A DNA stretch of 64,000 nucleotides, from positions 1-64,000 of the forward strand of contig PHBE01000015.1 in NCBI GenBank assembly GCA_002841885.1, written 5' to 3'. Shown one piece after another: positions 1-50,282 of the stretch. Within the stretch, counting starts at the first letter, position 1; each line of letters starts with the position of its first letter. The notes beneath the pieces are model-generated. The model was not told where the DNA came from, ran no database searches, and worked only from the letters and a program-made list of their open reading frames with translations. The stretch is from Deltaproteobacteria bacterium HGW-Deltaproteobacteria-18 (GTDB lineage Bacteria; Desulfobacterota; Desulfovibrionia; Desulfovibrionales; Desulfomicrobiaceae). The position numbers and the translations under genes were made by a program.

Positions 1-349
1 CTTCGTCATTCTCTGCTCCCTAATCATTTGCGTTTGAAGGGGTCGGGGCTAGCAGAGTTCCCACCTAAAGGCTTGTGCAAATTTCTGGGGCCACTTCTGT
101 CGAAGGGGGGACTAGCAAAGGCATCGCAGCTAATTCTTCAAAATCAATCAAATTTAGCTATTTAAGTACAAAATCATTTCGTAATTTATGACCTACATTC
201 TTGACCCCGCAGAATCAAGCAAAAAGTAAGCGCTCAATCGAGCCCATTTTCCAATAATTTCAAACCATGATATGAAAGGGCGTGCTGTTCATGCCCGCAA
301 AGTGTTGACGGGACGTGCGGTTAGCAGATCTCCACCCGAAACTGCCAGT
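1..349. other. Non-coding left edge
   Basis: No convincing gene is seen here. Bases 1-97 would be host sequence left of the island and 114-349 the first island bases beyond the 3' end of the hybrid kinase gene. There is no clear terminator hairpin with a U-run. The only notable element is the att-like repeat at 98-113 and its weak copy near 36-57. Confidence 0.5.
98..113 (+). repeat. Left attachment-site repeat of the island
   Basis: The 16 bases TGTCGAAGGGGGGACT are identical, and in the same orientation, to 23121-23136 in the tRNA-Leu gene. On the minus strand the repeat covers the discriminator base, the 3' acceptor strand and part of the T arm. The CCA at the tRNA end is not repeated here. 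A degenerate relative (GAAGGGGTCGGGGCTAGCAGAG, split as GAAGGGG and GGGGCTAGCAGAG) lies at about 36-57 and may be an older or arm-type site. Confidence 0.8.
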
Positions 350-5521: not shown

Positions 5522-5836
5522 ATGACCCGATTCACGAAAACACTTGTGTTTTTGTTCATTGCGGCCTTGCCGGTGCACGCTGGTCAGGTGACAAAGACGC
5601 ATGCAGATGACTGGGGCCGGAATTCTTCCCTAAACTTCGAATCTGTTTTCGAGAGTTATCAGCCTTACCGCCACCAATCAGTAGCTCCCTGGAGGCAGTC
5701 CAACAAACGAGTAGGGAAAGTGGGCGGGTGGAGCTCCTATGCGCGGGAAGCGGCGGAACCGGAAGATGCCGAAGCTCCCCCTCGATCCAGCCCTGTAGCG
5801 TCGCAGCCGGCGCATGATCACGGGAGCGCGCCATGA
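5522..5836 (+). CDS. Small exported protein of unknown function, first gene of copper operon
   Basis: This 104-residue protein has a clear Sec signal peptide (KTLVFLFIAALPVHA, cleavage before GQ). The mature part is short, polar and rich in Ser, Pro, Glu and Arg, with a His-containing tail (AHDHGSAP). No cysteine is present and I recognise no domain. GGAGG at 5512-5516 supports the ATG at 5522. The stop overlaps the start of the TolC-type gene (ATGA), so translation is coupled and the protein probably serves the same metal or efflux function. Its family is unknown to me. Confidence 0.75.
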   Translation: MTRFTKTLVFLFIAALPVHAGQVTKTHADDWGRNSSLNFESVFESYQPYRHQSVAPWRQSNKRVGKVGGWSSYAREAAEPEDAEAPPRSSPVASQPAHDHGSAP

Positions 5837-7260
5837 ACATGATGACAGCCCTATGCAAGGGATGTGCGCTTCTTGTCCTACTGGGCGGCCTGGCCGGTTG
5901 CGCCACATTTGACTTCGATCAGTCCGTGGCCAGGACCAACACCCAGGCCGCAGGCTTCACCCACGGCCAGCTCGCACTGGCCCGCGACACCGCGCAACGT
6001 GACGCCATGGCCCTGCGGGCGTCCGAACAGCTGTCCAAACCGTTGAGCGAACCGGCCGCAGTGCAGCTGGCCCTGGTGAACAGCCCCTCGTTTCAAGCCC
6101 TGCTGGCCCGGAATTGGGCAAACGCGGCCGATGCGGCCCAGTCGGGACGCTTGGAAAACCCTATCTTCTCCATCGAGCGTCTCCATGTTCTGTCTGAGGT
6201 CGAATTCGGCCGGCTTCTGAGCGTCGGACTGCTTGATCTGCTGACCTTTCCAGTGCGTCAGGCCGTGGCGAAATCGCGCGTTGCGGCCGAAGAACACAGG
6301 CTGACCCGCGATGTGGTGCGGCAGGTCACCGAGGTGCGCGGGGCCTGGGTGCGGGCCGTGGCCGCAAACGAGCGTCTCGGCTATGCGCGGCAGGTCTTTG
6401 CTGCCGCCGAGGCCTCTGCCGAACTGGCTCGCCGCATGCAGCAGGTTGGCAATTTTAACACCATCGAACGGGTCAGGCAGCAGGGCTTCTACGCCGACGC
6501 GGCCACGCAGCTCGCCCTGGCCCGGCACGCCCTGACTGCCCGCCAGGAGGAACTTATCCGCCAGCTAGGCCTCTCCGAATCCCAGGTCCCCCTGCTCATG
6601 CTGCCTGCTCGCCTGCCTGATCTGCCGGACTCCGCGCGCCAACCGGAGGACGTGAGCTCGGCGGCGCGGGCGGGCAACCTTGATGTGCGCCTGGCACAGG
6701 CCGAATTCGAGGCTGCGGCCAAGGCCCAAGGGCTCGGCCGCGTGACCAGCCTGGTCGATGTGGAGGCGGGACTGCGTCACAACACGGTGTTTGACAACGA
6801 CTCCGGGGACCGGGCCACCGGACGCGGTTACGAGCTGGACGTGACCCTGCCTCTGTTCGACTGGGGCGGCATGAAACGCGAGGCCATGAACGCGCGCACC
6901 CTGGCCGCCGGCCATGAGCTCGAAGCCGCCCTGCGCGGGTCTGGGTCCCGGCTGCGGGAAGGCTACTCGGCGTACCGCACCGCCCACGACATCGCCCGTC
7001 ACTACCGGGAGGAGATCATCCCCCTACAGCAGGTCTTGGCCGAGGAAAACGTGTACCGTTACAACGCCATGCTCATCGGGGTTTTCGAATTGCTGGCCGA
7101 CGCCAGGGAGCGGATCCGCGTGGTGCAGACCGGGATTGACACCCTGGAGGGGTTTTGGCTGGCCGACGCGGCCCTTGAGGCCGTGATCATGGGCACCGAG
7201 GGCGGCGGCGAACTTGCGGGACCCGCGCCGCAAGGGGAGGCCCGCGATGCCGGACACTGA
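5833..7260 (+). CDS. TolC-family outer-membrane efflux lipoprotein
   Basis: This 475-residue protein resembles outer-membrane efflux proteins of the CusC/NodT class. It has a signal peptide ending in a lipobox (LAGC) at about residue 22. The body is Ala/Arg-rich alpha-helical sequence in two related halves, with features such as LALVNSPSFQALLA and LDVTLPLFDWGG that are usual for the family. It would form a trimeric channel in the outer membrane. No membrane-fusion or RND pump gene is in the window, so it either borrows an inner-membrane partner or serves an unusual export task with the downstream copper proteins. It overlaps the preceding stop by 4 bases. Confidence 0.88.
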   Translation: MNMMTALCKGCALLVLLGGLAGCATFDFDQSVARTNTQAAGFTHGQLALARDTAQRDAMALRASEQLSKPLSEPAAVQLALVNSPSFQALLARNWANAADAAQSGRLENPIFSIERLHVLSEVEFGRLLSVGLLDLLTFPVRQAVAKSRVAAEEHRLTRDVVRQVTEVRGAWVRAVAANERLGYARQVFAAAEASAELARRMQQVGNFNTIERVRQQGFYADAATQLALARHALTARQEELIRQLGLSESQVPLLMLPARLPDLPDSARQPEDVSSAARAGNLDVRLAQAEFEAAAKAQGLGRVTSLVDVEAGLRHNTVFDNDSGDRATGRGYELDVTLPLFDWGGMKREAMNARTLAAGHELEAALRGSGSRLREGYSAYRTAHDIARHYREEIIPLQQVLAEENVYRYNAMLIGVFELLADARERIRVVQTGIDTLEGFWLADAALEAVIMGTEGGGELAGPAPQGEARDAGH

Positions 7261-7291
7261 TTTTTTTTGCGGACGAGACAGCGAGGTCAAC

Positions 7292-8704
7292 ATGAATTCC
7301 AGAAGACGATTTTTGCAGACGGCGGGACTGGCGGGCGGAGCCCTGGCCGCGTCGGCCGTGACCCGCGTCGCCCTGGCCGGGCTGCCGGAGGCTGTTGTTC
7401 AGAATTCTCCGGAGACCATGCCGCCTTTGCACCCTCCGACGGGTCCCCCCTACAATCCAGTGGTGACCTTGAACGGCTGGACTCTGCCTTGGCGCATGAA
7501 CAAGGGCGTCAAGGAGTTCCACCTCGTGGCCGAGCCCGTAGTGCGCGAACTGGCTCCTGGCCTCAAGGCCCATCTCTGGGGGTACAACGGACAGAGTCCG
7601 GGGCCGACCATCGAGGTAGTGGAAGGCGACCGCTTGCGCATCTTCGTGACCAACAGGCTGCCCGAGCACACCAGCATCCACTGGCACGGCCAGCGCCTGC
7701 CCAATGGCATGGACGGCGTCTCTGGCCTGACCCAGCCTGCGATCCAGCCGGGCAAGACCTTCGTGTACGAGTTCGTGGCCCGTCGACCCGGCACCTTCAT
7801 GTACCATCCGCACGCCGACGAGATGACGCAGATGGCCATGGGTATGATGGGATCTTGGGTCACGCATCCCAAGGCGAAGCACCCCCTGATCGACGAGGTG
7901 GACCGCGATTTCGTCTTTCTCCTGAACGCCTATGACATCGATCCGGGGAGCTATACGCCCAGGATCATGACCATGCTCGACTTCAACCTGTGGAGCTGGA
8001 ACAGCCGGATTTTTCCGGGCATCGACTCCCTGAACGTGCGCCTGAATGACAAGGTCCGCGTCCGCATCGGCAACCTGACCATGACCAATCATCCGATGCA
8101 TCTGCACGGGCATGAGTTTCTGGTCACTGGTACGGACGGCGGCCCCACCCCCAGGGGCACGCGCTGGTACGAGGTCACCACTGACGTGGCCGTGGGTCAG
8201 ATGCGGCAAATCGAATTCGTGGCCGACGAGGAGGGCGATTGGGCCTTCCATTGCCACAAGAGCCACCACACCATGAACGCCATGGGGCACGACGTACCGA
8301 CCATGATCGGCGTGGACCACACCGGCCTTGCGCGCAAGATTACGTCCCTGATCCCGGACTACATGGTCATGGGCGAGCGCGGCATGGCCGACATGACCGA
8401 GATGGAGATGCCGCTGCCGGACAATTCCATCCCCATGATGACCGGCCGCGGGCCTTTCGGGAGCGTCGAGATGGGCGGCATGTTCAGCGTGGTCAAGGTG
8501 CGCCGGAACCAGAAGCGAGGCGATTATTCAAACCCCGAGTGGTTCAGGCACCCGCCCGGAACGCAGGCCTATGAATTCGGCGGTACCTTGGCCGAGCCGG
8601 CAAGGGACTTTTCTCCCGGCGGCCTGTCCATGCCCAGGGAGCAGGAACCCGGCGACGGGATCGAGCTTAAAGTACGCAAACCCGGACATACCGGCCACGA
8701 ATAA
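7292..8704 (+). CDS. Tat-exported multicopper oxidase
   Basis: This 470-residue multicopper oxidase carries a twin-arginine signal (SRRRFLQTAG). Copper-ligand motifs are IHWHGQ, YHPHADE, NHPMHLHGHEF and FHCHKSHHTM, which together make the type 1 site and the trinuclear cluster. It would oxidise Cu(I) or another substrate in the periplasm with oxygen as acceptor. The later part is Met-rich (MTEMEMPLP), as in copper-tolerance oxidases. The ATG at 7292 with GAGG upstream fits the Tat signal; an ATG at 7247 with AGGGGAGG is the alternative and would add 15 residues. A laccase-type enzyme is notable in an otherwise anaerobe-like genome. Confidence 0.9.
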   Translation: MNSRRRFLQTAGLAGGALAASAVTRVALAGLPEAVVQNSPETMPPLHPPTGPPYNPVVTLNGWTLPWRMNKGVKEFHLVAEPVVRELAPGLKAHLWGYNGQSPGPTIEVVEGDRLRIFVTNRLPEHTSIHWHGQRLPNGMDGVSGLTQPAIQPGKTFVYEFVARRPGTFMYHPHADEMTQMAMGMMGSWVTHPKAKHPLIDEVDRDFVFLLNAYDIDPGSYTPRIMTMLDFNLWSWNSRIFPGIDSLNVRLNDKVRVRIGNLTMTNHPMHLHGHEFLVTGTDGGPTPRGTRWYEVTTDVAVGQMRQIEFVADEEGDWAFHCHKSHHTMNAMGHDVPTMIGVDHTGLARKITSLIPDYMVMGERGMADMTEMEMPLPDNSIPMMTGRGPFGSVEMGGMFSVVKVRRNQKRGDYSNPEWFRHPPGTQAYEFGGTLAEPARDFSPGGLSMPREQEPGDGIELKVRKPGHTGHE

Positions 8705-8714
8705 GGAGGCGACC

Positions 8715-9194
8715 ATGATTATGCTGCGAGCGGCCCTGATCCTGTTGTTCTGCGCGGACATAGCCTGGAGTCACGGCACGGAGCACGAACCGGCCACGCC
8801 CGTCCTGCGAGAACAGCAGGAATGGGGAATCGCGGGCGACGCGTCCGCCGTGACCCGGACCGTGGCGGTGCGCATGCTCGACACCATGCGCTTCGTGCCG
8901 GATGAAATCGAGGTGCGACTGGGCGAGACCGTGCGTTTTGTCGTCAGGAACGAAGGCCTCATGATGCACGAGTTCGTCATCGGCACGCAGTCCGGAAACA
9001 AGGCGCACGCGGCGCTCATGCTCAAATATCCGAACATGGAGCATGAGGCGGCGCACATGGCGCATGTCGCGCCGGGCGGGGAAGGCGAGGTCGTCTGGCA
9101 TTTCAACCGGCCAGGAGAGTTCGAGTTTGCCTGCCTCATTACCGGGCATTATCAGGCGGGCATGATCGGAATCATCCGTGTTGCCGGGAAATGA
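8715..9194 (+). CDS. Periplasmic cupredoxin
   Basis: This 159-residue protein has an N-terminal signal peptide ending near WSHG and a C-terminal cupredoxin fold. Type 1 copper ligands are visible: His in LMMHEFVIG, then Cys, His and Met in CLITGHYQAGM. It is likely an electron or copper carrier for the multicopper oxidase, whose gene ends 10 bases upstream. AAGGAGG precedes the ATG at 8715. Similar cupredoxin genes accompany multicopper oxidase and TolC-type genes in bacterial copper-resistance clusters, which supports the assignment. Confidence 0.87.
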   Translation: MIMLRAALILLFCADIAWSHGTEHEPATPVLREQQEWGIAGDASAVTRTVAVRMLDTMRFVPDEIEVRLGETVRFVVRNEGLMMHEFVIGTQSGNKAHAALMLKYPNMEHEAAHMAHVAPGGEGEVVWHFNRPGEFEFACLITGHYQAGMIGIIRVAGK

Positions 9195-9229
9195 CCCGTT
9201 TTCAAATTCTCTGATCCAGGAGGAATGCC

Positions 9230-9568
9230 ATGCGTAGATATGTGTGCTTCATGCTCATGATTTTGTGCGTTTTTTCGTTCTTTGTGCCCGTGAGATTCGC
9301 GTCTTCCCAAGTGCTGGAAGAGCCCGCCCTCGTGGTGGCGCAAAGCGATATGACGCGGGGCGACGTCAGAAGGATCGACAAGGAAAACAAGAAGATAACC
9401 ATCCGACACGAGGAAATCAGGGACTTGAATATGCCGCCCATGACCATGGTCTTCCAGGTCAGAGACGCGGCGCTGCTGGACAAAGTCCGCATCGGAGACA
9501 AGGTCCGGTTCCGAGCCGTCGAAGAGGGCGGGGCACTCATGATTACCGACATGGAAAAAGATTTCTGA
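9230..9568 (+). CDS. CusF-like periplasmic copper-binding protein
   Basis: This 112-residue exported protein has a signal peptide up to about residue 27 and a small beta-barrel of the CusF type. The metal motif reads IRHEEIRDLNMPPMTMVF: the His and the two Met ligands of CusF are in place, while the capping Trp of E. coli CusF is replaced by Met in NMPPMTM. The protein probably delivers or buffers Cu(I)/Ag(I) in the periplasm. GGAGG lies upstream of the ATG. It closes the plus-strand copper operon and faces the regulator gene convergently. Confidence 0.85.
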   Translation: MRRYVCFMLMILCVFSFFVPVRFASSQVLEEPALVVAQSDMTRGDVRRIDKENKKITIRHEEIRDLNMPPMTMVFQVRDAALLDKVRIGDKVRFRAVEEGGALMITDMEKDF

Positions 9569-9608
9569 TCCTGGCTGGGCGCCTGTACGGGAAAACCATG
9601 GAGAATTA

Positions 9609-10967
9609 TCACTCTCCGTACTTGGTCAGCTTCGCGTGCAGGGTCTTGCGCGTGATGCCCAGCCGCCTAGCTGCCTCGCTCTTGTTCCCGTCGGCTGCGC
9701 CCATGGCGCCGAGTATGGCCAGCCGCTCCAGCTCCTCAAGCGTCATGTTGGAAAAACCGCCGTCCGGACGCCCGCATTCGCCGCCGGCTCCGGACAGTTG
9801 TGGGGGCAGGTCCCTTTCGCTGATGTATTCCCCCAGCGCCAAAACCACTGCCCGCTCTACGGCGTTCTCCAGTTCGCGGACATTGCCGGGCCAGGAGTGC
9901 TTGAGCATCCTGTCCATGGCCTCAGGAGTGAAACCTTTGGCTTGCTTGCCGTTTTTCTCGGCGAACTTTCTCAGAAAATGCGCGGCCAAGAGCGGAATGT
10001 CCTCCTCGCGCTCGCGCAGAGGCGGCAGGGCCAGGGCGACCACGTTCAGACGGTAATAGAGATCCTGACGGAAGCGCCCCGCCTCCACCTCGGCCACGAG
10101 GTCGCGGTTGGTGGCGGCCACGATGCGCACATCGACTTTAATGGTCTGGTCCCCGCCCACGCGCTGAATTTCGCGTTCCTGAATGACGCGCAGGAGCTTG
10201 ACCTGCATGGACAAGGGCATCTCCCCGATCTCGTCCAGAAAGATAGTCCCCTTGTCCGCCGCCAAAAAGCGCCCCTCCCGCCGCCGGTCGGCCCCGGTGA
10301 AGGCGCCCTTCTCATGACCGAAAAGCTCGGATTCGAGCAGGGTTTCGGTCAGGGCCGCACAGTTCACGGCGACGTAGGGCCCTTTGCGGCGTGGACTGTT
10401 GGTGTGGACGGCCCTGGCAATGAGTTCCTTGCCCGTGCCCGACTCACCAGTGACCATGATCGTGGCCTCGGATGGGGCGATGGTGGCCAGCATCTCCATG
10501 AGCCGCTGCATGGCTGGACTCTGGCCGATGATCCCGCCAGAATCGAAAGATGCGGACAGGGTCTGGCGCAGAGCCTTGTTTTCGTCGCGCAGAGCCGCAT
10601 GGTCCAAGGCCCGATCCAGGGTCAGGCGCAGGTCGTCGAAATCCAGAGGTTTGGTCAGGTAGTCGTAGGCCCCGGCCTTGATGGCCTCCACGGCTGTTTC
10701 CACATTGGAATAGGCGGTCATGATCAGGATGGGGATGGCCGGATTGTAGACCTTGATTTCCTTCAATGCCTCGATGCCGGAGATTCCGGCCATGCGCACA
10801 TCCATGAGAATGAGGTCGAAGGCCCGCTCCCGGCAGAGGGACACGGCCGATTCCCCGCTCTCGATCTCATGCGGGACGTAGCCCCAATCGGCCAGCAGGG
10901 TGCGAAGCATGCCCCGATGGCCGGAATCGTCATCAACTATGAGGATGGTGATCTTGGATGGTTTCAT
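9609..10967 (-). CDS. Sigma-54-dependent response regulator, ZraR/NtrC type
   Basis: This 452-residue protein has a receiver domain with Asp56 (LILMDVRM), an AAA+ domain (Walker A GESGTGKE, the sigma-54 contact loop GAFTGA, Walker B TIFLDEIGE) and a Fis-type helix-turn-helix at the C terminus (KSEAARRLGITRKTLHAKL). It activates RNA polymerase with sigma-54. Its gene overlaps the kinase gene by 4 bases. A -24/-12 promoter at 12875-12889, in front of the SHOCT and ZraP-like genes, is the obvious target. A role in the copper operon is possible but I found no sigma-54 promoter there. Confidence 0.92.
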   Translation of the reverse strand: MKPSKITILIVDDDSGHRGMLRTLLADWGYVPHEIESGESAVSLCRERAFDLILMDVRMAGISGIEALKEIKVYNPAIPILIMTAYSNVETAVEAIKAGAYDYLTKPLDFDDLRLTLDRALDHAALRDENKALRQTLSASFDSGGIIGQSPAMQRLMEMLATIAPSEATIMVTGESGTGKELIARAVHTNSPRRKGPYVAVNCAALTETLLESELFGHEKGAFTGADRRREGRFLAADKGTIFLDEIGEMPLSMQVKLLRVIQEREIQRVGGDQTIKVDVRIVAATNRDLVAEVEAGRFRQDLYYRLNVVALALPPLREREEDIPLLAAHFLRKFAEKNGKQAKGFTPEAMDRMLKHSWPGNVRELENAVERAVVLALGEYISERDLPPQLSGAGGECGRPDGGFSNMTLEELERLAILGAMGAADGNKSEAARRLGITRKTLHAKLTKYGE

Positions 10968-12721
10968 GGCCGCCCCCCGGTCGTGGGTAGTAGTAGGGTG
11001 AAAATCGTGCCCTGACCCACCACGCTTTCCACCTTGATCTCGCCGCCGTGGGCTTCGATGATGCGGTGCACGATGGCCAAACCCAGCCCCGTGCCAGAAC
11101 TTTTGGTCGTGAAATAGGGGTTGAAAATGTCCGGCACAAGTTCCGCGACCATGCCGTGGCCCGTGTCCGTGATGCGCAGAACCACGACCCCGGCTTCCGG
11201 CGCCGAGACCACCGAGATCTCCAGCGTCCCGCCCTGGTCCATGGCCTGCACGGCATTGAGGAACAGATTGAGCAGCGCCTGGGTAAAACGTTCGGGGTCT
11301 AGCGGGACGCGCGGTAAAGCCTCTTCCTGCTCGAAACGCACCGCAATGCCCTTGGCCGTCACGTCGGCGCGGACCAGACGCAAGGCACGCTCCACGACCT
11401 GGGCCAGATCTTCGTCGCGCAGTTTCATCTCGCCGGGCCGGGCGAACTCCAGCAGCTCCGAAACCACGCGGTTCAGGCGGTCCGTTTCCTGGATCATGGC
11501 CCGCGCCGCGTCCTTGTCCTGCCCCTGAACCTTGCCAGCGAGATAGGTGGCAAAACCCTTGATGGAGCTGAGTGGATTTCTGATCTCGTGGGCCACCCCG
11601 GCGGCCAGGTTACCTAGGGCCGTCAGGCGCTCGTTGCGCCGGACCTGCCCCTGCAGGCGGCGAATTTCGGCCAAATCACGCAGCAAAAAGAGATAGCCCA
11701 AGAAGTCACCGTCGTTCGTGACGATTCGGGACGCGCCCAGATTGACAGGGACCCGTTTGCCCGGTCCCGCGACGAGAGTCACTTCACGTTCCGGCACCGT
11801 GCCCTTGTCTGCCAACTCGGCCATGATCCCGGCCCAGTCCACGCCACCAAAACCTCCCAGAAGCATGCCCGGTAAGGTTTCTTTGTCCAACCCAAAGAGA
11901 GCCGACGCGCCTCCGTTGGACAGGACCACCCGACCATCGGGGTCGGTGCTGAGCAGCCCCAGGGGCAGACACCTCACCACTTCCGAGGCAAAGGCCTGGG
12001 TATCCCGCAACTGACGCCGGGAGAGACGGTAATGCTGGGCCCAGAAAAGCGAGGCAAAGCCGCCCAATCCAATGAGCAGCACGAGTGCCGTGACCAACAC
12101 GCTGGTGTGCAGTTCGTCAGCCACCGCCTCCTCCAGGGGACGCACATCCAGGCCGACAAAAATGACAGACGGATCATGGTCGCCCCCGCCTTGCGCCTGA
12201 GATTGCATGCCCATCACGCCCATACCCCCGATGCGGGGCGGGCACCACATGGAGTGATGCACCCCCGGCAGAGGCACAAATTTTTTATACACCTCGTAAA
12301 CCCTCCCGCCTTCCATCTCCTGAAAATGCCCCTGCTTCTCTTCACTCAAGGTCCGGGCGGACATGACCTCCGGGGGATGAAAAGCCGACCCGACCCGGGC
12401 CGCGTCGCTGTGGGCCAGGACAAGCCCTTTGGCATCGGTCACGGTCAGATAGATGATGCCGTGCTGTTTGGCCGTCTCCTCCACCAAAGACTGAAAATAG
12501 CCCGCGCTGCCTTGCATGCCCATGCCTATGCGGGTTCCGGCCTCCAGCGCCCAGAACAGGGCCTCGGCGTGCTCCAGATAATTCTGGACCATGTGCTCCT
12601 TCTCGCGCTGGACGTTGCGCACCGCAAAGACCGACACCGCCAGTCCAAGAATAACTGTCATCCCCGCCACTAACCACGGATTTGCCCGTGCACTCTTCGG
12701 GCTGTCTGCTTGCATGTTCAT
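10964..12721 (-). CDS. Membrane sensor histidine kinase, ZraS type
   Basis: This 585-residue kinase has two membrane segments (about 16-36 and 207-229) around a periplasmic sensor domain. The sensor is rich in potential metal ligands close to the second membrane segment (HHSMWCPP, then MGVMGMQ and a His-Asp tail). A PAS domain follows in the cytoplasm, then HisKA with His in GVAHEIRNPLSS and an HATPase domain. Architecture and neighbours match the Zn/Pb-responsive ZraS family; which metal is sensed here is open. The ATG at 12721 is preferred because GAGAGG lies 7 bases upstream; the longer frame begins with TTG. Confidence 0.9.
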   Translation of the reverse strand: MNMQADSPKSARANPWLVAGMTVILGLAVSVFAVRNVQREKEHMVQNYLEHAEALFWALEAGTRIGMGMQGSAGYFQSLVEETAKQHGIIYLTVTDAKGLVLAHSDAARVGSAFHPPEVMSARTLSEEKQGHFQEMEGGRVYEVYKKFVPLPGVHHSMWCPPRIGGMGVMGMQSQAQGGGDHDPSVIFVGLDVRPLEEAVADELHTSVLVTALVLLIGLGGFASLFWAQHYRLSRRQLRDTQAFASEVVRCLPLGLLSTDPDGRVVLSNGGASALFGLDKETLPGMLLGGFGGVDWAGIMAELADKGTVPEREVTLVAGPGKRVPVNLGASRIVTNDGDFLGYLFLLRDLAEIRRLQGQVRRNERLTALGNLAAGVAHEIRNPLSSIKGFATYLAGKVQGQDKDAARAMIQETDRLNRVVSELLEFARPGEMKLRDEDLAQVVERALRLVRADVTAKGIAVRFEQEEALPRVPLDPERFTQALLNLFLNAVQAMDQGGTLEISVVSAPEAGVVVLRITDTGHGMVAELVPDIFNPYFTTKSSGTGLGLAIVHRIIEAHGGEIKVESVVGQGTIFTLLLPTTGGRP

Positions 12722-12785
12722 GAATGACCTCTCGACCAACCTGTAACCGTTTTACCCACATTGTCCAGAGCGCTGTCACATCTTT

Positions 12786-12801
12786 ACCCGCATCCGCGGG
12801 T
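12786..12801. promoter_or_regulatory. Inverted repeat, candidate enhancer site for the sigma-54 regulator
   Basis: ACCCGC-ATCC-GCGGGT is a perfect 6-4-6 palindrome about 75-90 bp upstream of the -24 element at 12876. That distance suits an upstream activator site for an NtrC-type protein. The assignment rests on position and symmetry only. Confidence 0.45.
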
Positions 12802-12874
12802 GCTCACTCATCGCGACCCCATTGGGACCAAATTAAATCAATAAATTTCAGATAGATAAAAAGTGCGCGGCTCC

Positions 12875-12890
12875 TGGCATGTTCCTTGCC
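12875..12890 (+). promoter_or_regulatory. Sigma-54 (-24/-12) promoter
   Basis: TGGCATGTTCCTTGCC matches the sigma-54 consensus TGGCAC-N5-TTGC, with GG at 12876-12877 and GC at 12888-12889, exactly 10 bases between them. It faces the SHOCT and ZraP-like genes, and the sigma-54 activator gene is divergent next door, as in the E. coli zraP/zraSR arrangement. Confidence 0.8.
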
Positions 12891-12934
12891 AATGTGTAAC
12901 TGAATATCGACGAAATAAATGTGGAGGAGACGTC

Positions 12935-13165
12935 ATGTGGAACTGCGGAACGTACCCCTGGCTTGGAGGGTGGATGATGGGGCACTCCCTGTGGGGCATC
13001 CTGCTCCTGGCGGGACTAGGCACTCTGATCTGGACGATGCTCAGGAGTCGGCGCGATGGAAACTCCGCCGCCGATAGGTTCGATTCACTGGAAATTTTGA
13101 AATTGAGGCTTGCCAAGGGCGAAATTACCGTCGAAGAATATAACACCCTTAAATCGATACTCTAA
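12935..13165 (+). CDS. Small membrane protein with SHOCT domain
   Basis: This 76-residue protein has a Trp/Gly/Met-rich start (MWNCGTYPWLGGWMMGH), one membrane helix (WGILLLAGLGTLIWTML) and a C-terminal SHOCT motif (ILKLRLAKGEITVEEYNTLK). SHOCT motifs are short oligomerisation modules found in many small envelope proteins. GGAGGA lies just upstream of the ATG. It follows the sigma-54 promoter and precedes the ZraP-like gene, so it is probably induced under the same metal or envelope stress. Its exact function is unknown. Confidence 0.82.
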   Translation: MWNCGTYPWLGGWMMGHSLWGILLLAGLGTLIWTMLRSRRDGNSAADRFDSLEILKLRLAKGEITVEEYNTLKSIL

Positions 13166-13263
13166 CTGGCAGTTATTCGGATGTCCGATCAAATCGCTGA
13201 CTATACTTTGTTGTTTTGAATGCGGATATAGAATAATCCATAAACATCTAAAAGGAGAATCTA

Positions 13264-13791
13264 ATGAAAACTTACCGTAACGCCTTTGCCACACTTCTTA
13301 CTCTGGCTTTTGTCACCGCCTTCGTCGGCCTTGCATCCGCTCAAGGGATGATGGACGGCATGGGAAACATGACTCCGGAAAAGCACGCCACAATGCAGAA
13401 GATGCGCTCGGATTTCGCGACGGCCACGGCTGACTTGAACAAGCAGGTTTTCGCCAAGGAATCCGAACTCAACGCCATACTGTACGGTGAAAAAGTCGAC
13501 GACAAGAAGGTCGAGGCACTGACTACCGAGATTAACGCCTTGAACGCCAAGATCTATGCCGAACAAGTCAAGATGCATAAGCAAATGGCCAAGGAAGGTA
13601 TTGTACCCATGAGCGGCAAGGGCATGATGGATGGCAAGGGATGCCCCATGATGGGCGGCAAAGGAATGGGCGGTGGAATGGGCATGATGGGAGGCAAGGG
13701 CATGATGGGAGGAATGCAGCACGGCGCGAATAATGACACAGCCGGGCAAGGTCCGGTAGACCATAACGCCCACACTCCGGCCAACCAGTAA
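13264..13791 (+). CDS. ZraP-like periplasmic metal-binding chaperone
   Basis: This 175-residue protein has a signal peptide (cleavage after LASA), a helical Spy/CpxP/ZraP-type core with the pattern MQKMRSDFATATADLNKQ, and a Met/Gly/Lys-rich tail of repeated GGKGMMGG-like units plus His residues. ZraP family proteins bind zinc and copper and protect periplasmic proteins. AAAGGAG precedes the ATG. It lies about 100 bases after the SHOCT gene with a strong terminator downstream, so the two form one unit driven by the sigma-54 promoter. The tail length and its single Cys are unusual. Confidence 0.82.
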   Translation: MKTYRNAFATLLTLAFVTAFVGLASAQGMMDGMGNMTPEKHATMQKMRSDFATATADLNKQVFAKESELNAILYGEKVDDKKVEALTTEINALNAKIYAEQVKMHKQMAKEGIVPMSGKGMMDGKGCPMMGGKGMGGGMGMMGGKGMMGGMQHGANNDTAGQGPVDHNAHTPANQ

Positions 13792-13875: not shown

Positions 13876-14486
13876 CTCGCTTGTGTAATGCTCACCCAAA
13901 TCCCGACTGGCGATCTTGTCCATCTTTGACGGGGACAGAGAACCAACAATTGCAGGATACATGCGGCTCCAATGAAGGTCCGCATACTCAAACGGATCTC
14001 GCTGCGACCAATTCGCCCAGAGTATGGTTCAACAAACACATAACTGAAGTAATAGACATTGACTTGAGGTAAAGATGTGAACCTGGCCGACCACGCTTAC
14101 GTGCGCCAGAAGGTCGTCGAGGCGTGAGATTAGGAAGGGATTTGAGTTGACCTAGGTCGTTTTTGAGGGCGTTGTTGGGTGCTCCATGCAGTGCTTCCAC
14201 ATGGGTGTAGAGCAACTCTCTTTTTCCTTGCGCATTTCGCCCGCGCCGACGGTGATCTGGACAAAAACATCCTCAATGCTTGGCTTGATCAGACTACTGG
14301 CAAACCCCCGTCCTAATCGGGGGTTTGCTTTTGAAGATATCTGACTGTGTGATATTCCGATAAGGATAATTTCCGTGAAGTTGCTATTTGGAGACTGACT
14401 AGCGTTTGGAATGCTGGGCGCACCACAACAAAATGCCATCAAAGCCTCCGACTTCGGTGGCACACAAATCATCTTAATTTAAAAAA
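13876..14486. other. Non-coding scrap region with gene debris
   Basis: No intact gene is seen. A minus-strand frame (14152-14472) contains SSLIKPSIEDVFVQIT, which resembles the C-terminal signature of ABC-transporter ATPases (PSxEDVF), so it may be a gene remnant; upstream parts are missing. A second frame near 13988-14215 carries an Arg-rich segment I cannot place. A strong hairpin terminator lies at 14300-14332. Confidence 0.4.
14300..14332 (+). terminator. Orphan rho-independent terminator
   Basis: An 11-bp stem GCAAACCCCCG (14300-14310) with CGGGGGTTTGC (14318-14328), a 7-base loop and a TTTT tail. No intact plus-strand gene lies before it, so it may be left over from a lost gene or end an unseen small RNA. 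Confidence 0.75.
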
Positions 14487-16260: not shown

Positions 16261-16435
16261 TTGAACCAGATATATTACAAGGCATATTGTTAAATAAAAG
16301 ACTTTCAAATAGGGCCAACAATCAATGTTTTTGCTACCTAGCTGTGCTCCTTTGGAAAATCAAGACCGCCTGCCCAAGGCTTTGCCAACCAAAGTCCCCA
16401 ACAGGTCCATTTAATGGAGGTCTCAATAGCGATAC

Positions 16436-16624
16436 TTGACGACTTGTCATACGGTCGATGTGCTTCAGGAAGCCTTTCATCGCTTTGCCCATCCTGAAAT
16501 CGTTAACAAAGATCAAGGCAGTCACTTTCCAGCGATCGAATTTGTATCGGCTGTCACAAACAAACTGAGCCACTTCTCTCACGCCAGCTTTACGTCTCGC
16601 GAATATTCGAATAAGCATTTTTAA
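16436..16624 (+). pseudogene. IS3-family transposase remnant
   Basis: A short frame contains LQEAFHRFAHPEIVNKDQGS, which matches the integrase core of IS3-type transposases (usual form PEIxNTDQGSQF, with the catalytic Asp). The N-terminal part and the rest of the core are missing, and no inverted repeats or intact element ends are visible. It lies directly upstream of the selenoprotein gene. Confidence 0.6.
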
Positions 16625-16645
16625 AACAGCAACTTGGAGGTAAAC

Positions 16646-16966
16646 ATGCAAATACTCATCATACTTTCTAGCAGTGACCCGGAGGTCAAGTGGAATGCTG
16701 TCCGATTCGGCAACTTTCTCCTGACAGAGGGTGAGGACGTAACCATCTTTTTGAATGGTCCGGCCGTGAACCTCTACTCTGGAAATTCGTCGACTTTTCC
16801 AATTAACGAACAGGCCAAACTTTTCTCCTTGAGCGAAGGCATCTTGGCAGCTTGAGGGAAGTGCATGGGCGTCCACGGTGTGGATGCAATTGAACATGGT
16901 ACGCTTTCGAACATGAAATTTCTGTACGAGCAAGTGAAGTTGGCTGACAGAATCATCAACTTTTAG
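16646..16966 (+). CDS. DsrE-family selenoprotein (in-frame TGA as selenocysteine)
   Basis: The frame from 16646 meets TGA at 16853-16855, but the reading frame continues with coherent DsrE-like sequence to a TAG at 16964-16966, giving 106 residues with Sec70. Before the TGA: MQILIILSSSDPEVKWNAVR, a DsrE/TusD-type start. After it: GKCMGVHGVDAIEHGTLSN and a helical end. The redox motif reads U-G-K-C (Sec70, Cys73), where Cys-containing relatives are expected to have CGKC. A hairpin with a GGU loop follows the TGA. GGAGG precedes the ATG. DsrE-like selenoproteins have been reported in deltaproteobacteria. Likely role: sulfur or thiol-disulfide chemistry in the cytoplasm. Confidence 0.83.
16862..16888 (+). 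promoter_or_regulatory. SECIS-like hairpin after the Sec codon
   Basis: TCCAC (16872-16876) pairs with GTGGA (16880-16884) around a GGT loop, extended by TGCA (16862-16865) with TGCA (16885-16888) and a 6-base bulge. The loop starts 22 bases after the TGA. In E. coli fdhF the loop GGUCU lies about 19 bases after UGA, and SelB needs G and U in the loop. Position and loop fit a bacterial SECIS; folding energy was not computed. Confidence 0.65.
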
Positions 16967-17235
16967 TTGCGATAAACGAAACGACCTCTCTCACCCCGAA
17001 ACCCGTTAAAAATTCGGGAAGTTACTTTTTTAATAGGAAGCCTCAACATGACCACGGGCTTGTCCTTTAACAGTTCGGAAGACCACTCATCGACATGTTC
17101 GGGGTCCTTCCAGACAGCCCCATGAATGCCGGAAGAACCGGACTCCCGATCGCCTTTACGGCGAACATCGAGCAAGGTGACGCCAGAAGCGCCCATAAGC
17201 ATTTTCAATTCCTGAGCAGTCAGCGTATCGGCCAT
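16963..17235 (-). pseudogene. Truncated rhodanese-like protein
   Basis: The frame starts like a rhodanese domain: MADTLTAQELKMLMGASG, then VTLLDVRRKGDRE and HVDEWSSELLKDKPVVM. The active-site loop (usually YCxxGxxS) should come next, but instead the sequence changes to an unrelated tail (LRLPIKKVTSRIFNG) and ends after 90 residues. The catalytic Cys is absent, so the protein is probably inactive. GAGGAA supports the ATG at 17235. It converges with the selenoprotein gene, overlapping its stop by 4 bases; a rhodanese and DsrE pair is functionally sensible, so this may be what is left of a sulfur-transfer locus. Confidence 0.6.
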
Positions 17236-17287
17236 GTGAGATTCCTCTAATTTATTGATTTCGCGCCGGAAACGGCTTCCGGCGCGA

Positions 17288-17683
17288 GTTATTTTCAACC
17301 ATGCCCGCGAATACTACAACAACGATTTCTTCGTGACCAGCCTTGGACTTGGACGCGTGCATTCCGACAAGAGCCTGCGGCAACGGCTTCAACGGATCGC
17401 TCTGGAAACGGATCTCGGCGCGCAGTTGCCTCGGTGCTCGGTCAGACTGTGTAAGAAGAACGAAATGCAGCCTAGGATCATCGCGATGACCAGGAATGAC
17501 AACAATAAGGTGCGCTTGGTGTGCCTTGATATCGACGTCAGCAATTTCGACAACACCGACATGGCGAAGGAAGGTGCCAGCGCCACATACGACAAAAAGT
17601 TCGGCTTCGATCTGATCTTCGCCCATCTTGGAGGCGGCTGGATGGTCAAACGGCAAGCCGAACAAACTCCACAAACGGCATAG
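17288..17683 (+). pseudogene. IS1380-family transposase remnant
   Basis: The plus-strand frame contains REYYNNDFFVTSLGLGRVHS, DKSLRQRLQRIALET and, later, VCLDIDVSNFDNTDMAKEGA, the hallmarks of IS1380-type transposases (VDIDVSPFDN with the first catalytic Asp). The frame stops after about 130 codons of what should be over 400, so the element is broken. Element ends were not found. Together with the IS3 fragment it marks a site of repeated insertion. Confidence 0.75.
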
Positions 17684-17834: not shown

Positions 17835-18416
17835 ATGTCTCACATCGCCTACGTTCGAGTCAGCACAACAGATCAGAATACCGATCGTCAGCTTGCCGAC
17901 TCCGGCATTCAGTTTGACAAGATATTTACCGACAAGACCAGCGGCAAAAGCACTGACCGCCCGCAACTCCAGGCTTGCCTTGAATATCTGAGGGAAGGTG
18001 ACACGCTCCACGTTCACTCAATCGACCGCTTTGCCCGCAGTCTCAAGGATCTTCAGACGCTCGTTGACCAGCTTATGGTCAAGGGTGTGAAGGTGCAGTT
18101 CCACAAGGAAAATCTAGTATTCGATGAAGGATCAAACAACCCTATGAACAAGCTCATGTTTCAGATAATGGGCGCTTTTGCGGAGTTTGAGCGGTCGGTA
18201 ATTCTTGAACGACAGCGGGAAGGAATTGAACGTGCCAAGGAGAAGGGCGTGTACAGTCACGGGAAGGGTGGCAGAAAGAAAACCGTAGACCGTGACTTGG
18301 TCCGCAAACTGCGTGTTGAGGATTTGAGCCTGCGCAAGATAGCTGAGCAGGTTGGGTGCAGCCTCTATACCGTGCAGCGGATCTTATCCGGCGATCAGCC
18401 CAGGGAATCCCGCTAA
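17835..18416 (+). CDS. Serine recombinase (resolvase/invertase family)
   Basis: This 193-residue protein is a complete small serine recombinase. The catalytic Ser10 is in AYVRVSTTDQ, other active-site parts are SIDRFARSL and the long E helix (FAEFERSVILERQREGIERA), and a helix-turn-helix closes the protein (SLRKIAEQVGCSLYTVQRIL). It would resolve cointegrates or invert DNA segments. AGAGG lies upstream of the ATG. There is no transposase gene intact beside it, so it may belong to the island itself, or to a lost transposon or plasmid. Confidence 0.93.
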   Translation: MSHIAYVRVSTTDQNTDRQLADSGIQFDKIFTDKTSGKSTDRPQLQACLEYLREGDTLHVHSIDRFARSLKDLQTLVDQLMVKGVKVQFHKENLVFDEGSNNPMNKLMFQIMGAFAEFERSVILERQREGIERAKEKGVYSHGKGGRKKTVDRDLVRKLRVEDLSLRKIAEQVGCSLYTVQRILSGDQPRESR

Positions 18417-18799: not shown

Positions 18800-19012
18800 A
18801 TGAAGACAATCAAATCTTTCACACTCAGCCATGAAAGCATCCGGTATTTAGCGGAACGCTCCGCCATGACAGGCCAGTCACGATCAACGATCCTCGACGG
18901 AATCATCAATGAGTATGCCCAGCAGGCATACAAAGCTTTCGTGGCGGACGTTCGCCGCCAGATTGATGAAATCTGCCCTGACCGGGAGGTTGCGACCAAT
19001 GGCCAGGAGTAA
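18800..19012 (+). CDS. Small protein, possibly ribbon-helix-helix type
   Basis: This 70-residue protein begins MKTIKSFTLSHESIRYLAER and continues SRSTILDGIINEYAQQAY, a beta strand followed by two helices as in small Arc/CopG-like DNA-binding proteins. The assignment is by shape only. AGGAAA precedes the ATG. Its stop overlaps the next gene, so the two are co-translated. It is likely part of the island's own regulation or replication set. Confidence 0.6.
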   Translation: MKTIKSFTLSHESIRYLAERSAMTGQSRSTILDGIINEYAQQAYKAFVADVRRQIDEICPDREVATNGQE

Positions 19013-19271
19013 GCGCCGCATCGGCTCCGCACTCCGGTTGCAGCAGGAACTAGAAGCGTTGTTCTTCCAGGCCGTGGAGGCCGGAGATTTGAAAGCATCC
19101 GGCTATTTGGCTCAAATTTGGGTTTCTTGCGAAAATCACGCGAAAGAAGAAAGGGCGCAGAAAAAGAGTCAGAAGACATCAATTGACCAATTATGCAAAA
19201 TTCTTTCAGAAGGCAGAAAAGAACTTTTAAAAAAAATGAGTAACAATGAGGGTGAAGACAATGAAATATAA
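18999..19271 (+). CDS. Small basic protein of unknown function
   Basis: This 90-residue protein starts MARSKRRIGSALRLQQELEA and is charged and helical, with a Lys/Ser-rich second half. I recognise no family. GGGAGG lies 9 bases before the ATG at 18999, and the gene overlaps both neighbours by about a dozen bases, a pattern of tight translational coupling. It is an island gene of unknown role. Confidence 0.55.
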   Translation: MARSKRRIGSALRLQQELEALFFQAVEAGDLKASGYLAQIWVSCENHAKEERAQKKSQKTSIDQLCKILSEGRKELLKKMSNNEGEDNEI

Positions 19272-19716
19272 AAATGATGATACAGTGACAATATCAAAGC
19301 AAATTATTGATGCAATAACTAGAGATAAATTAGCAAGCGAAATCACAAGTCATGAAAGATGCAAAAATTTAAACAATCTTGAATATGCGATTAATTACTT
19401 TATCAACGATTATCATTACACCTGGAATGAAGAAAAGAAGCAGTTTTGCACCCACCTCCGGGAGGGCGAAATTGCTATCCCAGATGGCCGCACGGTCCAT
19501 GAGCACCTTGACGGACTTCTGTCCGATCCAAAGACGGCGTGCCTCTTGGCCACCAGAGCCGAGGTCGAGCGGTACGAGAGACCCAAGTGCAATCCCTGGA
19601 TCAAGGGCGCGGACTTTTCTCTGAAGAAGCAAGCTGCCGTCTTGAAGCACGAACCTGAGCTGGCCAAACGGTGGCGGCATGAGGGCACGACCATCAATGC
19701 CGAGGTGCCCAAGTAA
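19261..19716 (+). CDS. Unknown island protein
   Basis: This 151-residue protein has no recognised domain. Its first half is Asn/Ile/Lys-rich and AT-rich in DNA (NNLEYAINYFINDYHYTWN), while the second half is much more GC-rich (LREGEIAIPDGRTVHEHLDG onward), so the gene may be a fusion of two sources. GAGGGTGAAG precedes the ATG at 19261; an ATG at 19246 is the alternative. It continues the small-gene unit from 18800. Confidence 0.5.
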   Translation: MKYKNDDTVTISKQIIDAITRDKLASEITSHERCKNLNNLEYAINYFINDYHYTWNEEKKQFCTHLREGEIAIPDGRTVHEHLDGLLSDPKTACLLATRAEVERYERPKCNPWIKGADFSLKKQAAVLKHEPELAKRWRHEGTTINAEVPK

Positions 19717-19878
19717 CATTTCCGCCGAAAAATGACGGTGAAAAGTGAGCTGGCGGCGACGAAAATTCAGTGCAGCCCACCTGCCAGCGAAGAACAGGCG
19801 TAGCTTCCGGGATTTCTGACGGAAGCTGCGCTTTAGTAGAATAATTATATATATGCTAACCAAGAGAAAACTGAAAGA

Positions 19879-20382
19879 ATGAAAAAAACTCTTAAAAATC
19901 GAATCAAACAAATGACCGAACATGCTGCCGAATTGATACCATCACCGTTAGCTTTTCTTTTTTATACAGAAAATGACTCAGACATTAGCCAAGATGAAAT
20001 GCACGCTTGTCTCGAAGAATTACAGAGAAAAATTCATTCAGACGGAAATCATTTCGGATTCATCGCTATAACGGATGAAACAGAGCATGGTTTTCATTAT
20101 CATGTGATATGCTTTGTATCATCCAGATCGTATGGTAATTCTTTCAGGTTTGGAAGTATGCTCAATAAAGTTTGGAATGAATCCTTACCCGGAAAATTAT
20201 ATCCTTTCTGGCCTGATAATCCAATGTATCGGTTAAGCACTCAAATGGAAGCATTCCTTGAGCGTTGTAACTATTTCAGCAACCCACATAAGAGCCAAAT
20301 TCCAAAATCACTTGAGCACTCCAAGAAACGCTACTGGTCAAGCCATCTATCCAGCCTTTCAACAAAAAGGAAGGCGGCATGA
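19879..20382 (+). CDS. YagK/inovirus Gp2-like protein, possible HUH replication protein
   Basis: This 167-residue protein has an early segment FGFIAITDETEHGFHYHVIC, where HYH with flanking hydrophobic residues resembles the metal-binding HUH-type motif. It goes on with a YxxK-like later part (ERCNYFSNPHKSQIPKSLEH, then RYWSSHL). The order and spacing resemble the YagK/YfjJ or inovirus Gp2 family found in E. coli prophages and satellites. The family's activity is not proven, though a rolling-circle replication role has been suggested by its motifs. It lies amid the small island genes. Confidence 0.5.
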   Translation: MKKTLKNRIKQMTEHAAELIPSPLAFLFYTENDSDISQDEMHACLEELQRKIHSDGNHFGFIAITDETEHGFHYHVICFVSSRSYGNSFRFGSMLNKVWNESLPGKLYPFWPDNPMYRLSTQMEAFLERCNYFSNPHKSQIPKSLEHSKKRYWSSHLSSLSTKRKAA

Positions 20383-21128: not shown

Positions 21129-22976
21129 TTACTTTTTACCTTTGGCCCATGGGCTCATCGCCAGGTCTCTCAGGGCCGGGACACTCAAATGAAAATCCAG
21201 TAGCCCGATTCCATTATCCAGTTTGAAATCCAGGCCAAAACTATCCGAATAGCTGCCGTGAATTTGGGAAACCCCGGCTCCATCAGCGGCATCGTGCCCT
21301 GTAATTTCACACCGGACTTCAACGCCAACACCCAAATCCCGCAGTCGGTCAACCACAGTGTTCCTGAAACAGTGAAAATCCAGTTTATCACCGTCCGTTT
21401 CGCCTTCAACACGGCCTACACCAACTGACCGCCGCAATTTCATGAATCTATCAGTCAGCTTGTATTGCGATCGCCACTGAAATTTGTATTCTGAGCTGTT
21501 CACCTTCTTGTTCGCTGAAAGGCTTTCCTTGAACAAAAAATCATCTGGCTCGAATCTTTTTACAAAATCAAGAAACCCCAACTGCACCAAGAAAGGATGA
21601 AGCGGAATTGGTCGATAGGAGTCCTTTGATTTCAAGTTTTTGACGCTAGTGTCGGTCAAATCAATGTATAAAACACCAGCACGGCCTTTCATCGGGCTAG
21701 ATGATTTCCTGAGCGTGTACACGTCCAGACGCTCAGGTGTGGCTTTTATGTCCTTTGCCCTCAGGGTCAATATCTCACCCATACGCATTCCACTAAACAA
21801 GGCGATCAATGGCCCCCAGAAATCGCCGGGCCTTTTTGCAGACCACCTCATATATATGTCCGGCTCAAACAATGCCCTGAGTTCATCCAAACTGTAAGCT
21901 CGTGTTGGTGTTCCACCCGCCATGCTCACGGTATACTCAAGATCCGAAGCTTTGCCCGACAGTTTTTTGCGAATGGCGGATGCTGTATCCGCTGAAAGAT
22001 ATCCGTGCTCATGGCACCACCCCACGAACCGCCGTACATCCTCGCACCGCTTACGCTGCGTTCCCGGACTCAGAGGCTTATCAACCTTCACCGCTGGCCC
22101 GTAGTCGGTCAGTGGGCGGGTCAAATTACACAAATCAAGCCCCGTAGGAATATACTGAAGCCGAACAATGTACGCCGTGATATCCTCAAGCCTCAAGACA
22201 TCCATGGGTTTGTCCTGCCCCACGATCAAGGCCATTTCGCGCAACCCATGGCGTTTATCACGACTTCCGTTTTTCCCGGTCTTTCCGGCGCTGACAATGC
22301 CGTCGTCCAATTCTTTCAAGTGGGCTTCAACGGCGTTTGACAGCGAGATTTTTGGCGGTACCGCTTGCGTGTCCAGTTCCGGAACTGGTGACGTCATTGG
22401 AACAGACTTCATTACTTCAGGCCGGTAAAGAAAATCGCCGCGATCGATCTTGTCCAACCTCACCTTCACGGCTTCACGCGACGCCCGAAGCAGCTTGTAC
22501 GACAGGCGATGATATTCAGGGCTCGCTCTATCCAGATCAACGCCGAGTTCCGTGATAATTTCTTCCATGGTTTCAGCCACCAGGAAAATATCATTGACGG
22601 CCAGAGATTCTTCAATTTCACCAAGCCGATCCGCCACGCCGTCAGACATGTAGTCAGAATAGCGCCGAAGTTGGGCGGGCTTCAGCGTCAGAAGCTCCGC
22701 CTCGGCTTCGATCATCCACTGACCTAATTTTATTCGCAAAATTTCATCGAATCGAGATTCGAGATTACCACTGTCTCCATCCATCGATTTCCAAACTCCC
22801 GCTAACTTCGCATTAAGATAGCCAACCTTCACCCGTGCCTCACGAGCATATGGCGTTCGAAGGCTCCGGCGGATTTCCTTCCGCCCTACCACCGCCTGCA
22901 ACCGCTCCGGGACGACTGCCCGCCAGTACAACATACCTCCGACACGGACCATGCACGAACCGTATGAAAAACCCAT
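21129..22976 (-). CDS. Tyrosine-type site-specific integrase of the island
   Basis: This 615-residue protein has an N-terminal arm-binding part (MVRVGGMLYWRAVVPERLQ, then RKEIRRSLRTPYAREARVKV), a middle region, and a C-terminal catalytic domain. The Arg lies in FSGMRMGEILTLRAKDI, the HxxR box is HCFRNTVVDRL, then comes the His of ITGHDAADGAG, and the nucleophile Tyr in HGSYSDSFG. GGAG 5 bases before the ATG at 22976 sets the start; the longer frame begins with TTG. It is longer than phage lambda-type integrases and adjoins the tRNA-Leu gene it presumably uses as attachment site. Confidence 0.93.
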   Translation of the reverse strand: MGFSYGSCMVRVGGMLYWRAVVPERLQAVVGRKEIRRSLRTPYAREARVKVGYLNAKLAGVWKSMDGDSGNLESRFDEILRIKLGQWMIEAEAELLTLKPAQLRRYSDYMSDGVADRLGEIEESLAVNDIFLVAETMEEIITELGVDLDRASPEYHRLSYKLLRASREAVKVRLDKIDRGDFLYRPEVMKSVPMTSPVPELDTQAVPPKISLSNAVEAHLKELDDGIVSAGKTGKNGSRDKRHGLREMALIVGQDKPMDVLRLEDITAYIVRLQYIPTGLDLCNLTRPLTDYGPAVKVDKPLSPGTQRKRCEDVRRFVGWCHEHGYLSADTASAIRKKLSGKASDLEYTVSMAGGTPTRAYSLDELRALFEPDIYMRWSAKRPGDFWGPLIALFSGMRMGEILTLRAKDIKATPERLDVYTLRKSSSPMKGRAGVLYIDLTDTSVKNLKSKDSYRPIPLHPFLVQLGFLDFVKRFEPDDFLFKESLSANKKVNSSEYKFQWRSQYKLTDRFMKLRRSVGVGRVEGETDGDKLDFHCFRNTVVDRLRDLGVGVEVRCEITGHDAADGAGVSQIHGSYSDSFGLDFKLDNGIGLLDFHLSVPALRDLAMSPWAKGKK

Positions 22977-23070
22977 ACCTTCTCCAAACTGTATCAGCAA
23001 ATTGTATCAGCCGGAGAAAATGTCCTAAAATCACGATTTTCAACCCTTCCATTATGCCGCGAAGGCCAAT

Positions 23071-23106: not shown

Positions 23107-23117
23107 TCAATTCTTCT

Positions 23118-23202
23118 TGGTGTCGAAGGGGGGACTCGAACCCCCACGGGAAATCCCACTACCCCCTCAAGATAGCGTGTCTACCAATTCCACCACTTCG
23201 AC
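23118..23202 (-). tRNA. tRNA-Leu (anticodon GAG)
   Basis: The minus strand folds as a tRNA: acceptor strands GTCGAAG and CTTCGAC, a D arm with GGAATTGGTAGACAC, an anticodon stem CTATC with GGTAG around loop TTGAGGG (anticodon GAG), a long variable arm as in Leu tRNAs, a T arm with GGTTCGAGTCC, discriminator A and encoded CCA. The gene is intact; its 3' end holds the island repeat. Confidence 0.96.
23121..23136 (+). repeat. Right attachment-site repeat, in the tRNA-Leu gene
   Basis: Identical to 98-113. It spans the discriminator position, the 3' acceptor strand and part of the T arm of tRNA-Leu, the usual target segment of tyrosine integrases. The integrase start lies 145 bases away. Confidence 0.8.
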
Positions 23203-50063: not shown

Positions 50064-50068
50064 GCCCA

Positions 50069-50212
50069 CTTCTCAGGGCGGGGTGCAATTCCCCACCGGC
50101 GGTATCCCGTTTTTTGGCGGGGAGCCCGCGAGCGCTTCCGGGGGTCCGGAAGGTCAGCAGATCCGGTGAGAAGCCGGAGCCGACGGTGACAGTCCGGATG
50201 AAAGAGAAGACG
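50069..50212 (+). ncRNA. FMN riboswitch (RFN element)
   Basis: The region carries the RFN landmarks in order: CTTCTCAGGGCGGGGTGCAA, CCCCACCGGCGGTA, a variable arm, GGTCAGCAGATCCGGTGAGA, GAGCCGACGGTGACAGTC and GGATGAAAGAGAAG. It senses FMN and turns down the following ribB gene. The ribosome site and GTG start come about 70 bases after its end. Confidence 0.95.
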
Positions 50213-50282
50213 GCCGCCGTTCACGGGCGTGAACGGATTTTTGCCGCGCCCTGATTCACGCTCAATTCCAAGGAGAACCAAC

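Follow-up and report, generated by a model that had tools for sequence, protein, structure and literature searches.

DsrE-like selenoproteins with a UxxC motif were described in 2005 from the Sargasso Sea (PMC1088965), and a 2006 paper lists one in Desulfovibrio vulgaris (PMC1794560). They are taken up again in two reviews (PMC9312934 and PMC13188914), the second of which gives the reference protein WP_014524487.1. In the portions of these four sources available to us, the family is listed by motif only. The literature searched, consisting mostly of papers available without subscription and in part of excerpts, contained no functional experiment on the Sec-DsrE family and no report of a Sec-DsrE gene on a genomic island. 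In the available portion of work on Allochromatium DsrE, sulfur is bound by the cysteine equivalent to TusD Cys78 and transferred to DsrC; the authors suggest that this cysteine forms the superfamily's active site (PMC3397948). YedF, a selenium-linked fusion of SirA and DsrE, shares the DsrE domain and, as far as the text available to us describes it, has CGxC (PMC5322559). The genome paper of D. baculatum refers, in the part available, to studies of the Sec system of this species (PMC3035215).

Here we analysed a stretch of 64,000 nucleotides, referred to as the window, from Deltaproteobacteria bacterium HGW-Deltaproteobacteria-18, whose genome (G000) comprises 3.99 Mb in 37 contigs. A gene in the window (Table 1) is a further member of the already known family of DsrE-like selenoproteins; the initial annotation had taken the family for a known one, and it has been in print since 2005 (PMC1088965, PMC1794560, in the portions consulted). 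Like this gene, the family described in those portions is characterized by Pfam DsrE, UxxC, an in-frame UGA and occurrence in sulfate reducers, and by that description there is no essential difference between the genes. What distinguishes the present case is the presence of two divergent copies in one genome, one of them in a putative tRNA-associated element. In contrast to YedF, the window protein of 106 residues has no SirA domain in Pfam and gives no NCBIfam match.

Table 1. Features of the window around the DsrE-family selenoprotein gene and elsewhere in the same stretch
Feature	Position	Strand	Remarks
16-base exact repeat of 23121-23136	98..113	+	Presumed other end of the element
Probable transposase integrase core (rve) remnant	16436..16624	+	62-aa frame; rve E 0.0019, 18.9 bits, below the cut-off of 32.6
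GGAGG ribosome-binding site	16636..16640	+	5 bases upstream of the ATG, read from the sequence
DsrE-family selenoprotein gene	16646..16966	+	106 codons, TGA as codon 70, stop TAG
TGA, predicted selenocysteine codon 70	16853..16855	+	Sec insertion predicted from homologues, selection and Sec machinery
SECIS-like hairpin	16869..16887	+	8-pair stem 16869-16876/16880-16887, GGU loop 16877-16879
Probable cut-down rhodanese-like gene	16963..17298	-	Rhodanese E 0.11, below cut-off
Serine recombinase	17835..18416	+	Pfam
Tyrosine integrase	21129..23000	-	DUF6538 above cut-off; Phage_integrase E 0.00061, below cut-off
tRNA-Leu (GAG)	23118..23202	-	Presumed attachment site
16-base repeat copy	23121..23136	+	Within the 3' part of tRNA-Leu
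FMN riboswitch	50065..50213	+	108.8 bits

The coordinates of the DsrE gene agree exactly with the sequence, with the ATG at 16646, the TGA at 16853-16855 and the TAG at 16964-16966. It had been claimed that DsrE coding runs past the TGA in the same frame, and both the coordinates and Pfam bear this out. When the TGA is read as U, the product has 106 amino acids with U-G-K-C at residues 70-73, and Pfam DsrE (PF02635, cut-off 22.7 bits) covers residues 1-106 of this read-through product, with Cys written for U, at an E value of 2.7e-6 and 28.0 bits. In a genome-wide search with PF02635, the same gene scored 18.9 bits and fell below the cut-off; of the 8 matches found, 5 exceeded the cut-off and had no stop. 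The model matched 15 of 17 members of the selenoprotein family at E <= 0.01. Elsewhere in the window TGA serves as an ordinary stop, since 6 of the 12 Pfam-supported genes end in it (TAA 5, TAG 1). No sigma-70-like promoter was detected in 16300-17300. The gene is a clean case, in that ordinary gene calling cuts the product at 69 or 73 residues.

Among the window's own genome and 100 relatives, 28 of 101 matched the DsrE gene, at 36 places, and 32 of these places contained exactly one in-frame TGA. The remaining four were partial copies with an added TAA in two genomes (G002 and G009), a distant homologue without a stop and with Cys (G011) and a fragment (G073). The full TGA gene was found in 6 of the 16 genomes of the genus, and the window's own genome holds a second full TGA copy (G000:C27:157-474) with 74% DNA identity to the window copy. 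When 395 genomes, the window's own among them, were sampled across the phylum, 71 matched the gene at E <= 1e-10. In 78 distinct homologous rows, codon 70 was TGA in 61 (four of them partial), Cys in 14 (TGC in 10, TGT in 4), Arg in a single truncated copy and not covered in two; the homologues align past the TGA, with Sec or Cys at this position.

Selection was assessed with 24 rows chosen out of 35, the other 11 being omitted because of indels or as partial, Cys or duplicate rows, and all 24 had TGA at codon 70. Over the 276 pairs, mean pS and pN were 0.595 and 0.231 downstream of the TGA, and 0.607 and 0.163 upstream of it. The excess of pS over pN downstream indicates that the region behind the TGA is translated and under purifying selection. 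If the TGA were an ordinary premature stop in a copy decaying among mobile scraps, one could understand that the neighbouring genes resemble remnants and that truncated copies of the DsrE gene occur in G002 and G009. However, such a pseudogene is extremely improbable in view of a TGA kept at one codon position in 61 rows from across the phylum, the purifying selection behind it, the second full copy in the same genome and the conserved hairpin described below; on the first three of these grounds it was discarded, together with a hidden stop and a sequencing error. The window locus almost certainly encodes, in a single gene, a real selenoprotein with the DsrE/YchN fold and with Sec predicted at the TGA.

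The genome is equipped for selenocysteine insertion. SelA (623.8 bits), SelB (366.5 bits) and SelD (327.1 bits) were all found above their cut-offs, and tRNA-Sec (selC) with anticodon TCA is also present, which completes the selABCD set; the selD gene itself carries one in-frame TGA. Judging from this machinery and from the hairpin, SelB with Sec-tRNA would bind the hairpin behind the UGA, and Sec would be placed at position 70.

The GGU loop of the hairpin begins 22 nt after the TGA. The initial annotation had pointed to such a hairpin at the distance of bacterial SECIS elements, and it proved to be conserved over the homologues, covarying and favoured in Sec genes but not in Cys genes, whereas folding of the window sequence alone departs from shuffles to a moderate degree only (z -2.30 for 43 nt, -2.24 for 40, -1.92 for 58 and -0.99 for 51). 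The convincing evidence is the comparison across homologues rather than the single sequence. Over the 24 rows, 94.3% of stem cells were paired versus 86.0% in shuffles, 12 cells were changed on both sides versus 3.1 (in each case 0 of 500 shuffles was as high) and the covariation score was 0.190 versus 0.069, these covariation counts being inflated by the relatedness of the rows. Pairing fell to 24-53% when the stem partners were slid. By a weaker measure of covariation, both-side changes occurred in 3 of the 8 pairs versus 1.7 in shuffles, with 28 of 500 shuffles as high, and 4 of the 8 pairs never vary in these rows.

The difference between Sec and Cys genes was seen in a synonymous-shuffle test, in which codons were permuted within each gene and the 42 nt behind the TGA were folded. 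The mean z in 60 Sec rows was -1.42, with 63% below -1, while ten folding windows elsewhere in these genes gave values from -0.35 to +0.50 and the same place in 13 Cys rows gave +0.15, with 15% below -1. In 60 of 61 Sec rows, and in 2 of the 13 Cys rows, the bases at +22/+23 after the TGA are GG. They begin the codon over the loop of the hairpin, which encodes Gly in 60/61 Sec and 2/13 Cys rows, so that constraints on protein and RNA are inseparable at this codon; GG was therefore dropped as independent evidence for the hairpin, and the synonymous shuffles are unaffected by this confound. That this Gly accompanies Sec in several clades of Sec genes may itself reflect the RNA signal, as if the requirement for GG in the loop had pulled a Gly into the protein eight residues behind Sec. 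A search of Rfam, which may hold no bacterial SECIS model, gave no match within the DsrE gene at gathering scores.

An AlphaFold2 model of the read-through product, built with 51 rows, had a mean pLDDT of 97.8. The predicted fold continues through the TGA, with strand 66-70 ending at residue 70 and a helix following, and the last predicted strand, 102-105, lies wholly behind it, so a product of 69 residues would be without part of the sheet. When the model was compared with known structures, ten of them reached Z scores from 16.5 to 13.2 and the next row 7.0; rows at Z <= 7.0 were regarded as sharing a common arrangement only. The best fold match was E. coli YchN (1jx7; Z 16.5, 106 residues at 2.0 A). 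It was also the best PDB match by sequence, although with an E value of only 0.011 and 19% identity, and it has C-x-x-C under U-x-x-C, that is, Cys rather than Sec. The fold is further shared with TusD of TusBCD (Z 14.5 to 2d1p_A) and DsrE of DsrEFH (Z 14.3 to 2hy5_A), which we take these two chains to be from their length. A profile alignment set Sec70 on Cys78 of E. coli TusD (probability 85.5%, E 5.6e-6). Unlike DsrE and TusD, the window protein stands as a single gene with Sec for Cys, and it gave no NCBIfam match at E <= 1, including the TusD/DsrE model TIGR03012.

The motif had been called a classic UxxC redox pattern. Although the window copy indeed reads U-G-K-C, this is not a conserved signature, since residue 73 is C in 41 of the 61 Sec rows and L in 11, S in 6, A in 2 and R in 1 (two of the 20 rows lacking Cys73, L035 and L101, are partial). 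Judged by eye, Cys73 is absent in at least five parts of the tree. For this reason we rank a carrier working through one residue over a UxxC reductase, and we give about even credence to the view that the Sec70 protein is a small carrier or transferase of chalcogen, with sulfur or selenium held on its selenolate. Sec70, located where a strand ends and a helix begins, would occupy the place of the sulfur-accepting Cys in TusD and DsrE; its selenolate would hold a sulfur (or selenium) atom and hand it on, and Cys73, where present, would act as an accessory. Against this reading, the second Cys is kept in 41/61 Sec rows and in 13 of the 14 Cys rows, as expected of a redox enzyme. A true selenoprotein acting as an oxidoreductase of the thiol-disulfide type, with a Sec70-Cys73 selenenylsulfide as the UxxC label implies, would fit these counts, with UxxC in the window copy and CxxC in nearly all Cys rows, and the available portions of the reviews also list the family with UxxC (PMC9312934, PMC13188914). 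We nevertheless find an oxidoreductase rather doubtful, because L, S, A or R takes the place of Cys73 in 20 of the 61 Sec rows and the best-studied relatives move sulfur via one Cys (PMC3397948, available portion).

If the carrier reading applies and Sec carries sulfur or selenium here, this would be an unusual use of selenocysteine outside redox catalysis. We extend it only tentatively to the family: Sec-DsrE proteins in general could possibly be one-residue selenolate carriers for sulfur or selenium, rather than UxxC redox enzymes, in which Sec replaces the persulfide Cys of the Tus/Dsr relay, with Sec/Cys swaps and a loop-driven Gly. The comparison provides testable content, namely Sec on the position of the sulfur-relay Cys and an expendable partner Cys. 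Neither the dispensable second Cys nor the match between Sec70 and Cys78 appears in the portions of the family literature consulted.

Gene neighbours were compared by clustering with BLAST the open frames within about 6.5 kb of the gene in 26 loci. The three largest clusters were the DsrE gene itself and shadow frames, followed by clusters of 12 loci (PAS/kinase type, by eye) and 7 loci; one of 6 loci overlaps the DsrE gene, and the others listed comprise 3 loci each. No recurrent partner gene was seen beside the DsrE gene, either in the 26 clustered loci or among 30 of the immediate neighbours at 20 loci. The neighbours differ between loci. No function was read from the BLAST clusters, and operon context was set aside as a guide to function. 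The DsrE gene would stand alone, with its own predicted ribosome-binding site.

On a tree of 70 rows, which has few columns and no inferred root, at least 4 changes between Sec and Cys were counted, gain and loss being indistinguishable. A Cys homologue (L097, 1501-1818) falls within the main Sec clade (99/88) and keeps the outer stem CTTCC...GGAAG. On this unrooted tree of few columns, the stem looks like a SECIS relic left after a change from Sec to Cys. In L106 (2001-2318 and 2439-2750), L108 (2354-2671 and 2001-2318) and L115 (2500-2727 and 2001-2309), a Cys DsrE gene and a Sec DsrE gene lie in tandem, and the Sec copies of the L106 and L115 pairs read U-K-K-A, without the second Cys. One genome (G092) has two Sec-DsrE copies (L069 and L070) that encode identical proteins; each copy lies close to a tRNA-Pro, a pattern suggestive of a segmental duplication.

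The initial annotation had placed the gene on a mobile island. This is well supported by sequence comparison at the end with the tRNA-Leu and the integrase, and weakly at the left border, which depends on a 16-base repeat lying 97 bases from the contig start. Twelve other tRNA-Leu loci of the genus share this flank, and in 11 of them the match to the window stops at 23110-23118, the 3' end of the tRNA; the exception is G002, where it continues to 23068, 50 bases beyond the tRNA end. In four longer stretches, the only similarity beyond the tRNA end lies at 14123-14195 (G009) and at 21745-21821 inside the integrase (G015). Between 13.5 and 23 kb the GC content lies at 45-51%, and from 24 kb onwards it is 58-63%. 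The stretch at 6-12.5 kb, which carries copper-resistance genes, has 60-66% GC, and the element would therefore be composite. In G002 and G009, window positions 98-225 come directly before 16750-17047, giving a DsrE copy without its first third, and in both genomes similarity ends at the same 16-base sequence.

On these sequence comparisons, the DsrE gene likely lies in an element integrated at tRNA-Leu. The family occurs throughout the order, the region has a patchwork structure and the left border is a 16-base match close to the contig start, all of which would also suit an old chromosomal gene with an integrase and a tRNA as unrelated neighbours. We hold this to be unlikely, since similarity ends at the tRNA 3' end in 11/12 loci and, two short pieces aside, in all four longer stretches, GC drops over 13.5-23 kb, and similarity in G002 and G009 breaks off at this same 16-base sequence. 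Taken as a whole, the explanation that combines a DsrE/YchN selenoprotein, Sec70 as carrier and a gene in a tRNA-Leu element appears reasonably probable to us.

The Sec form was not seen on named mobile elements in searches of phages, plasmids and viral contigs. The phage collection gave no match to the DsrE protein at E <= 0.001. The plasmid search returned 5 records, all haloarchaeal and 29-37% identical, of which one was read and has Cys, and one scan of viral contigs returned a single relative, also with Cys.

Several minor observations concern the element and its surroundings. A relative of the serine recombinase with 61% identity begins 180 bp downstream of the DsrE gene in G013, and the rhodanese-like stretch 17048-17290 has 78% DNA identity with L039 8080-8321. 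The copper-resistance set at 5833-13791 comprises an outer-membrane efflux protein, a multicopper oxidase, a cupredoxin, a CusF-like protein, a sigma-54 response regulator and a kinase, and a Metal_resist protein. Small open frames occupy 18800-20382 between the serine recombinase and the integrase, and the one scanned, at 18800-19012, had no Pfam match at E <= 1e-4. The truncated Sec-DsrE genes at the element's left edge in G002 and G009 lie at L064 6698-7128 and L065 ~7084-7514; ARAGORN found no tRNA in these loci, and beyond the edge both carry a gene that resembles, as judged by eye, hydroxylamine reductase. Finally, a 21-base stretch (16557-16577 and L058 77-97, 95% alike) occurs upstream of both DsrE copies of the genome, with a shorter piece of it at window position 90, just before the left 16-base repeat; this stretch is perhaps the end of an insertion sequence.
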